From: Halomarina pelagica
GTDB lineage: Archaea > Halobacteriota > Halobacteria > Halobacteriales > Haloarculaceae
DNA length: 64,000 nt
NCBI RefSeq assembly: GCF_024228315.1
Contig: NZ_CP100454.1
Coordinates: 2,356,001 to 2,420,000 of the forward strand
Direction of reading: 5' to 3'
Shown: positions 5,351-59,761 of the stretch, in pieces
Layout: each line of letters begins with the position of its first letter
Numbering within the stretch: the stretch's first letter is position 1
Program-made: the position numbers and the translations under genes
Notes under the pieces: model-generated
The model's input: the letters and a program-made list of their open reading frames with translations, nothing else
Database searches by the model: none
What the model was told of the DNA's origin: nothing

Positions 5351-5358
5351 AACGATAG

Positions 5359-5366
5359 TTCATATA
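5359..5366 (+). promoter_or_regulatory. TATA-like box of candidate RNA copy 1
   Basis: TTCATATA lies 30 bases before the conserved GTG...CTGAC block at 5389. The same spacing is seen at the second copy (35941 to 35971). The gene upstream ends at 5350 and the downstream gene is on the other strand, so this promoter has no protein gene to serve. Confidence 0.55.
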
Positions 5367-5388
5367 GGAGAGGGCGGCCAGAGCCCCC

Positions 5389-5473
5389 GTGTCCTGACGA
5401 GTCACCGCGCGGGGTTCCGCGGTTGCGCGACACGACCCCTCGCGTCCCGATCCGTCGCCTGTTCGCCCATCAC
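5389..5473 (+). ncRNA. Candidate structured small RNA, copy 1
   Basis: This segment between two convergent genes resembles 35971-36058. Shared blocks are GTG..CTGAC at the start, GCGGTTGCGCGAC at 5419-5431, and GTCGCCTGTTCGCC at 5454-5467. A stem forms between 5406-5415 and 5435-5444 (9 of 10 pairs). A second pairing, gcgac at 5427-5431 with gtcgc at 5454-5458, starts in the loop of the first, giving a pseudoknot or alternative-fold layout. The first stem keeps pairing in copy 2 with different bases. The 3' end is unknown and reaches the end of the opposing Bax1 gene at 5470. I know of no named RNA that matches. Confidence 0.5.
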
Positions 5474-35687: not shown

Positions 35688-35940
35688 ACCACCACCTTTT
35701 AACAGCCACCTTTTGCTGCGCTCGCGCGCCAGCGACACGCTTCGCGGTCGCTGGCGCGCGAGCGCAGCAAAATCTGGACCAAAAGCCAGCGTCACCTCTT
35801 CGGGCGCTCGCTGTGCTCGCGCCCTCGAAGGCTCCTTGGCCCGCTCGCTCCCTTCGGTCGCTCGCGGTGCGACTGATCGTGACGGCGGTGGGAGAGGGAG
35901 CTTCGACGACCCCGAACTCGTCGTTCTGCCGGCCCGTACC
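35688..35940. repeat. Hairpin-bearing extragenic element, copy E3, with a 26-bp perfect inverted repeat
   Basis: After ACCACCACCTTTT and CCACC there is a 26-bp perfect inverted repeat, arms 35711-35736 and 35747-35772, with a 10-base loop. Its outer ends are TTTT and AAAA. The AAAATCTGGACCAAAAGCC block follows. Further hairpin-like GC-rich sequence runs to about 35870, ending with 'ctccctt cggtcgctcgcgg'. The element lies just after the flavoprotein stop and could terminate transcription. The loop and right arm are repeated with one change at 38241-38280. Confidence 0.7.
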
Positions 35941-35948
35941 TTTATATC
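35941..35948 (+). promoter_or_regulatory. TATA-like box of candidate RNA copy 2
   Basis: TTTATATC lies 30 bases before the conserved GTG at 35971, the same distance as in copy 1 (5359 to 5389). The nearest downstream protein start on this strand is 200 bases away. Confidence 0.55.
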
Positions 35949-35970
35949 CGAGAGCGGGACCAGACTCCCC

Positions 35971-36058
35971 GTGCGCTGACCCTCGCCGCGGGGAGGGAAG
36001 CGGTTGCGCGACGCGACTCCCCGCGGGCACGAATCGCGTCGCCTGTTCGCCATCGCTC
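35971..36058 (+). ncRNA. Candidate structured small RNA, copy 2
   Basis: This copy shares with 5389-5473 the blocks GTG..CTGAC, GCGGTTGCGCGAC (36000-36012) and GTCGCCTGTTCGCC (36038-36051). It has a perfect 10-bp stem between 35986-35995 and 36017-36026. A 9-bp pairing joins 36008-36016, inside that stem's loop, with 36034-36042 outside it. Together these make an H-type pseudoknot layout, or two alternative hairpins. The bases of the first stem differ from copy 1 but still pair. It lies upstream of an aldo/keto reductase gene, far enough away to be independent. Confidence 0.5.
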
Positions 36059-36140: not shown

Positions 36141-36980
36141 ATGGTCCAACAGCGTGAGCTTACGCCGTCCGACGTGCCGGCCGCGAGCGGGATGCCGATG
36201 CTCGGCCTCGGCACCTGGCAGAACGACGACGCGGAGCAGTGCGCGGAGAGCGTCGCGACGGCCCTGGAGATGGGCTACCGCCACGTCGACACGGCGCAGG
36301 CCTACGGCAACGAGGAGGCCGTCGGCGAGGGGATTGCACGCGCGGACGTCGCGCGGGACGACGTCTTCCTCGCGACGAAGCTGTGGATCGACAATCTCGC
36401 GTCCGAGGACGTGCTGGAGACGACTCGCGAGAGCGTGGATCGCCTCGGCGTCGACTCGCTCGACCTGCTCTACGTCCACTGGCCCGCGCGGGAGTACGAC
36501 CCGGCCGACACGCTCGGCGCGCTCACCGAACTCCAGGACGAGGGCCTCATCGAGCGCATCGGGGTGAGCAACTTCGAACCCGAGCACCTCGAAACGGCGC
36601 AGGACGCCTGCGAAGCGCCGATATTGGCGAATCAGGTCGAGATCCACCCGCTGCTCCAGCAGAAGGAACTCCGCGAGTACTGCGAGGGCGAGGGCATCGA
36701 ACTCGTCGCGTACTCGCCGCTCGCGCGCGGGAAGGTCTTCGACGATCCCACCCTGTCCGACATCGCGGAGAAGCACGACGCGAGCGAGGCGCAGGTCAGC
36801 CTCGCGTGGCTCCGCGAGAAGGGCGTCACCGCCATCCCCAAGGCGACGAGCGAGGACCACCTCCGCGACAACTGGGGATCGCTCGCGCTCGCACTCGACG
36901 ACGAGGACGTCCGTCGCATCGACGACATCGGTCGCGAGGACCGGCAGGTTCACCCGTCGTTCGCACCCGACAGCTGGTAG
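36141..36980 (+). CDS. Aldo/keto reductase
   Basis: This 279-residue NAD(P)H-dependent reductase has the full catalytic tetrad D50, Y55, K80 and H113, in 'YRHVDTAQAYGNEEAVG', 'FLATKLW' and 'LLYVHWP'. The C-terminal cofactor signature 'AIPKATSEDHLRDNW' is also present. Such enzymes reduce aldehydes, 2,5-diketogluconate-like sugars or methylglyoxal; the substrate is not evident. I chose the ATG at 36141; the frame is open to 36090. A 'ccccttttgac' stretch about 30 bases upstream may be the promoter. Confidence 0.92.
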   Translation: MVQQRELTPSDVPAASGMPMLGLGTWQNDDAEQCAESVATALEMGYRHVDTAQAYGNEEAVGEGIARADVARDDVFLATKLWIDNLASEDVLETTRESVDRLGVDSLDLLYVHWPAREYDPADTLGALTELQDEGLIERIGVSNFEPEHLETAQDACEAPILANQVEIHPLLQQKELREYCEGEGIELVAYSPLARGKVFDDPTLSDIAEKHDASEAQVSLAWLREKGVTAIPKATSEDHLRDNWGSLALALDDEDVRRIDDIGREDRQVHPSFAPDSW

Positions 36981-59743: not shown

Positions 59744-59761
59744 GTCTGACGACCGTCAGAC
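59744..59761. promoter_or_regulatory. Inverted repeat between dtdA and ftsZ1
   Basis: gtctgac-gacc-gtcagac is a perfect 7-bp inverted repeat, just after the dtdA stop and 11 bases before the TATA-like 'agatagttattt' (59772-59783) of ftsZ1. It could be a terminator stem or an operator for ftsZ1. Confidence 0.4.

Follow-up and report, generated by a model that had tools for sequence, protein, structure and literature searches.

Within the 64,000-nt stretch of Halomarina pelagica DNA analyzed here (the window), a compact element at positions 35941-36058 lies on the + strand between a dispersed repeat with terminator-like hairpins (35695-35890) and an aldo/keto reductase gene (36141-36980, + strand). 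An earlier note on this DNA had described two interleaved pairings in the element, and both were recovered when the sequence was read directly and searched for repeats. Helix S1 is a perfect 10-bp pairing of CCGCGGGGAG (35986-35995) with CTCCCCGCGG (36017-36026), and helix S2 is a perfect 9-bp pairing of GCGACGCGA (36008-36016) with TCGCGTCGC (36034-36042). As had been claimed, the 5' arm of S2 sits inside the loop of S1 and abuts the 3' arm of S1 at 36016/36017, and a 7-nt connector (the variable loop L3) occupies 36027-36033. Loop L1 (12 nt; 35996-36007) carries the conserved motif GCGGKNGY, in which the GCGG is kept at 91-95% per position. Two further parts of the element fall inside 35941-36058 that the earlier note had not named: the TATA box of a promoter (TTTATAT, beginning at 35941; 35935-35947 with the preceding BRE-like CGTACC) and a conserved 3' tail, CTGTTCGCC (36043-36051), at which sequence conservation stops. 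Downstream of the TATA box, GGGACCAG (35956-35963), about -15 to -8 from the predicted transcription start, includes a conserved RCCA and could be a promoter-proximal element or a regulator site. The predicted start opens a leaderless minimal frame, GTG-CGC-TGA (35971-35979). All of these features are on the + strand.

The earlier note had rightly labeled this element copy 2, as a diverged copy 1 is found at 5353-5467 (+ strand; TATA box at 5359; GTG-TCC-TGA at 5389-5397; 94 bits), between convergent genes. The two are 75% identical over 112 nt (E = 2e-12). Copy 1 is separated from the convergent gene on either side by only about 2 nt; its S2 is reduced to about 5 bp and its S1 has one mismatch.

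Covariation of the two helices

Single-sequence folding of the RNA of copy 2 was no better than that of dinucleotide shuffles (z = +0.55). Since this value is uninformative, conservation of the pairings was examined in relatives. An alignment of 67 genus-level copies (A1) was used to build a covariance model, R1, from helix S1 only, with S2 left out, and wider sets (A2 and A4) were fetched and aligned by that model. Both helices covary in all three alignments, which hold 67, 48, and 95 distinct sequences, and are kept together across the order. Pairing was observed in 97.2% of pairing cells in A1 and in 97.1% and 95.3% of those in the two wider sets, and the pairs that had changed on both sides numbered 12 of 18 in A1 and 16 of 17 and 17 of 17 in the wider sets. 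None of 500 shuffles in any of the three alignments matched the observed pairing, which fell to about 30% when the partner was shifted by one column. When all column pairs were ranked for covariation without regard to structure, the top 9 in A1 and the top 13 in the class-wide set of 95 distinct sequences all fell in S1 or S2. Since A2 and A4 were gathered and aligned with a model that lacked S2, the covariation of S2 in these sets serves as an unfitted confirmation. These comparisons strongly support an H-type pseudoknot in which S1 and S2 are present together, with room for coaxial stacking.

Across the alignments, L1 is mostly 11-12 nt, L2 is 0-2 nt, and L3 is mostly 5-12 nt (4-22 nt overall); therefore, the 7-nt connector is normal. 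The earlier note had its length right but had called it short, which for this family it is not, and the accompanying suggestion that the two pairings might be alternatives that switch is not needed, given that both helices are conserved together. In S1, G-U pairs far outnumber A-C mismatches (47:6 in A1, 26:2 in A2, and 37:3 in A4; 110:11 in total), and therefore the + strand RNA is the folded strand.

Two additional pairings were considered and rejected. A hairpin upstream of the predicted start (P0; GCGGG with CCCGU) is not kept, and the GCGG of L1 and the CGC of the tail, which could pair, are both near-invariant and show no covariation. One locus (L010, about 1436-1590) has an insertion of roughly 35 nt in L3 that resembles the 3' arm of S1, which suggests a partial duplication within the element, and four loci from other haloarchaea (L160, L190, L156, and L327) have long extra insertions in the pseudoknot loops, some of them hairpin-like.

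Copies, neighbors, and distribution

A sequence search of the genome that holds the window found about 40 similar stretches, and the covariance model found 56 (E <= 2e-5). All 56 are on the 3.54-Mb chromosome contig (C1), which makes up 77% of the assembly; by our own calculation, the chance of this is about 4e-7 if placement is independent. In a sample of the class, the family was carried by 265 of 391 genomes and 60 of 86 genera, and in a sample of the phylum all 43 positive genomes belonged to a single order, Halobacteriales. Carrier genera include Haloarcula, Halorubrum, Halobaculum, Halogranum, Natronomonas, and Halosimplex. Copy number ranges from none to dozens across haloarchaea: two genomes of presumed Haloarcula have five copies each, three others have 17, 21, and 37, and Haloferax genomes have two strong copies plus weak matches. 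We take this last genus to be Haloferax because its CetZ1 is near-identical to PDB 4b46, an H. volcanii protein. The two H. volcanii copies are assigned to an rtcB/HAD-hydrolase locus and a DUF63/YcaO locus. Many genera are without the family, and it is therefore not essential to the group. No member was found on viral contigs, and the 20 bacterial matches to the strict pattern all scored at or below 16.6 bits, vs. 23-128 bits in 60 haloarchaeal loci.

Copies lie between convergent genes in 52 and between divergent genes in nine of the 109 examined, often within 50 nt of both flanking stop codons. A same-strand gene follows only about a third of copies, the neighbors are unrelated to one another, and the flanks differ even between orthologous copies. 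These observations bear on the relation to the aldo/keto reductase that the earlier note had drawn. If the element were a cis-acting 5' leader of that gene, such as a riboswitch or attenuator, its placement on the same strand about 90 nt upstream in three Halomarina species would be accounted for. However, conservation is lacking in the stretch between the two, and a promoter-like block belonging to the reductase itself (TTCGTAACCxCTTTTGA, invariant in the three species) stands just upstream of that gene. The RNA likewise has a promoter to itself, and elsewhere the gene downstream of a copy is antisense in most cases. The proposed relation is thus unsupported, and we consider a leader of this kind highly improbable; the reductase gene is not part of the element, and a role for the element in its 5' leader is unlikely.

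The site of a copy is often retained from one species to a related one, and some sites recur within genera. Of 31 copies sampled from three Halomarina species, 11 have flanks that on both sides match those of a copy in the genome that holds the window. In one genome group a copy lies downstream of rtcB, and in Halorubrum a copy recurs between genes that, read from their translations, are DNA-polymerase-subunit-like and IMPACT-like. In a comparison with omega RNA, the guide of IS200/IS605 TnpB, the recurrent neighbors of the family were housekeeping genes (from translations) and conservation stopped at the tail. A copy near rtcB, which encodes an RNA ligase, was seen in two genera (L102, L105, L110, and L220 in Haloferax; L101, L106, L109, L111, L112, and L114 in the other); this locus may be the oldest to have survived, or its recurrence may be accidental.

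The terminator-like element that the earlier note had placed upstream does precede the copy in the window, but it is a separate dispersed repeat and no part of the RNA. It consists of hairpin blocks around CTGGACCAAAAGC, has 43 matched stretches on the chromosome, and occurs with or without an adjoining RNA element. In Halomarina it is found on one or both sides of many copies of the RNA element, and the two may have spread together in this genus. Since many copies accompany this other repeat in Halomarina, the element has probably spread by copying in the recent past of the genus.

The copy number (up to 56 similar copies) and the company of another dispersed repeat at many Halomarina copies are what would be expected of a mobile or repeat DNA element (MITE- or REP-like), whose palindromes matter as DNA. 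Such an origin does not account for the excess of G-U over A-C in S1, which points to selection on one RNA strand, nor for the conserved promoter, the retention of the element across the order, and the recurrence of its genomic places; moreover, the arms are pseudoknotted rather than arranged as terminal inverted repeats. We therefore regard a purely DNA-level element as improbable. By contrast, the element is almost certainly an autonomous, conserved, structured RNA gene, as judged by comparison of its relatives, which establishes a family with a promoter at a fixed distance, a + strand pseudoknot, a tail, and retention at the same place within genera.

A predicted leaderless start-stop end

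A TATA-like box is present in every group, in TTTATA or TTCAAR/TTGAAR forms (TTTATAT, TTCAAGT, TTCAAAT, and TTGAAAT), and its first T lies 30-31 nt before an RTG in 227 of 238 copies. In haloarchaea, 30-31 nt is the usual distance from TATA box to transcription start. In the class-wide alignment, position -1 relative to the predicted start is a pyrimidine and position +1 a purine, and this combination is typical of archaeal transcription starts. The RTG is followed by one codon and a stop (RTG-NNN-stop) in 222 of 247 placed copies. Among these 247, the start triplet is GTG in 201, ATG in 29, and ATC in 10, and the stop triplet is TGA in 217, TAA in 15, and TAG in three.

The positions of these triplets depend on one another. 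A C at the third position of the start triplet is tied to an A at the first (ATC in 10 of 39, GTC in 2 of 203; p = 2e-7, counting related copies as independent), and a G at the third position of the stop triplet appears only after A (TAG in 3 of 18, TGG in 0 of 217; p = 4e-4, again counting related copies as independent). Such dependences look like reading by initiator tRNA and release factor. Given the RTG-one codon-stop pattern and these codon-like dependences, we therefore propose a leaderless start-X-stop RNA, and the balance tips slightly toward this start-stop reading being functional.

Not every copy conforms to the pattern. The ATC of 10 copies is not a usual start, and four copies have ATG-TGA with no middle codon. 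In addition, G is rare as the first base of the NNN codon (8 of 247), a departure from the codon usage normal in haloarchaea, and therefore another constraint acts there. These exceptions, together with the conservation of RCCA at about -11 to -9 (its C, C, and A are near-invariant in A1 and class-wide) as a sign of non-coding constraints around the start, would suit a non-coding small RNA gene in which RTG-NNN-TRA is untranslated, acting as initiator or operator DNA or as a protein-binding RNA motif, while the pseudoknot alone binds a protein, metabolite, or RNA. The dependences within the start-like and stop-like triplets argue against this alternative, which we consider rather unlikely. The operators that it might imply also lacked support: in a dyad joining RCCAS to STGAS (GRCCAG-N12-CTGACC), the half-sites do not co-vary (p = 0.51), and the operator of CdrS is absent. 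No covariation placed RCCA in any RNA helix.

Two ChIP sites of CdrS overlap the starts of unannotated genes (PMC8406309), and this prompted us to consider CdrS as a regulator of the family. The candidate was rejected: the CdrS operator (GTCAGAC-N4-GTCTGAC) was recovered upstream of ftsZ1 and dacZ and is absent from the element. Within the window, GTCTGACGACCGTCAGAC (59744-59761) lies upstream of ftsZ1; this perfect palindrome is common to the ftsZ1 upstream regions of several haloarchaea and coincides with where the CdrS site has been reported.

The element thus belongs to a multicopy RNA gene family that is confined to haloarchaea of the order Halobacteriales, and its RNA is predicted to be about 80 nt long and to end near CUGUUCGCC. 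The family plan comprises S1 of about 10 bp, S2 of 7-9 bp, L1 with GCGGKNGY, a short L3, and then the conserved CUGUUCGCC tail. Under the start-stop reading, transcription would begin on the purine of the RTG and yield a leaderless RNA whose first three codons are a start, a sense codon, and a stop. Haloarchaeal ribosomes initiate directly on a 5'-terminal AUG or GUG. A ribosome on this RNA would both begin and end translation within 9 nt and so be parked beside the pseudoknot, and the RNA might then act as a ribosome-associated regulator whose pseudoknot and tail are recognized by a protein, by the ribosome, or by a target RNA. A search for rRNA complements of CTGTTCGCC gave no convincing candidate; the best, a 9-nt match to 16S rRNA with one G-U, was by a rough estimate not above chance. 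No U-tract was found after the tail. Overall, we consider it fairly probable that the element is a small pseudoknotted RNA gene whose leaderless start-X-stop end engages ribosomes and whose pseudoknot and tail bind a partner, and our confidence in any particular target is lower. More tentatively, the family could be an RNA class not described so far: leaderless pseudoknotted RNAs, present order-wide in dozens of copies, whose start-X-stop minigene captures or senses initiating ribosomes.

Relation to known RNAs

At the gathering threshold, Rfam 15 (4227 families) gave no match to the window and none to 20 diverse loci of the family, the best sub-threshold matches being far below the cut-off, and the family was not found described in the literature searched, in which H. 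volcanii sRNAs were compared by description rather than by sequence. As far as Rfam and the literature searched reach, the family, its architecture, and the combination of a start-stop end with a pseudoknot would therefore appear to be new.

Among known systems, the start-stop minigenes of phage lambda bar RNA also consist of a start, one codon, and a stop, and can sequester or deplete ribosomes or peptidyl-tRNA. The frame of the present family differs in that it would open a chromosomal RNA that is leaderless, pseudoknotted, and present in many copies and, in contrast to such minigenes, we know of no toxicity associated with it. Compact H-type pseudoknots with conserved loops, as in this family, are found in the preQ1-II and SAM-II riboswitches, which lie in the 5' leaders of the genes that they control. 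However, the haloarchaeal RNAs have their own promoter and no Rfam match, and mostly no same-strand gene downstream, let alone one of constant function.

Intergenic ncRNAs that associate with ribosomes are known from H. volcanii (PMC6104027; PMC12482152), among them s194, IG1.7/htsf242, and Hts4 (PMC6104027). These ncRNAs are intergenic, independently transcribed, and 70-100 nt long, as is predicted for the family, and s194, which acts on ribosomes, is preceded by a TATA box at a distance of about 28 nt (PMC6104027). However, s194 is reported from Haloferax only, with >94% identity, and, compared by description, ncRNAs of its type have no described pseudoknot, order-wide family, or start-stop motif (PMC6104027).

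Haloarchaeal sRNAs are generally regarded as weakly conserved; when 27 from H. volcanii were tested, 22 lacked relatives in other haloarchaea (PMC3956466). An order-wide structured RNA whose pseudoknot covaries, whose 5' end is codon-like, and of which a single genome can have dozens of copies would rank among the most widespread lineage-specific archaeal RNAs. Individual members may already have been detected as unnamed H. volcanii sRNAs, the candidates being HVO_2908s and H3.2, two intergenic sRNAs with close relatives in Halobacterium salinarum (PMC10927574). Their membership in the family is a guess on our part. Since Haloferax is a genetic model genus with only two strong copies, function should be directly accessible there; one of these copies lies at a place compatible with HVO_2908, by an estimate of position only.
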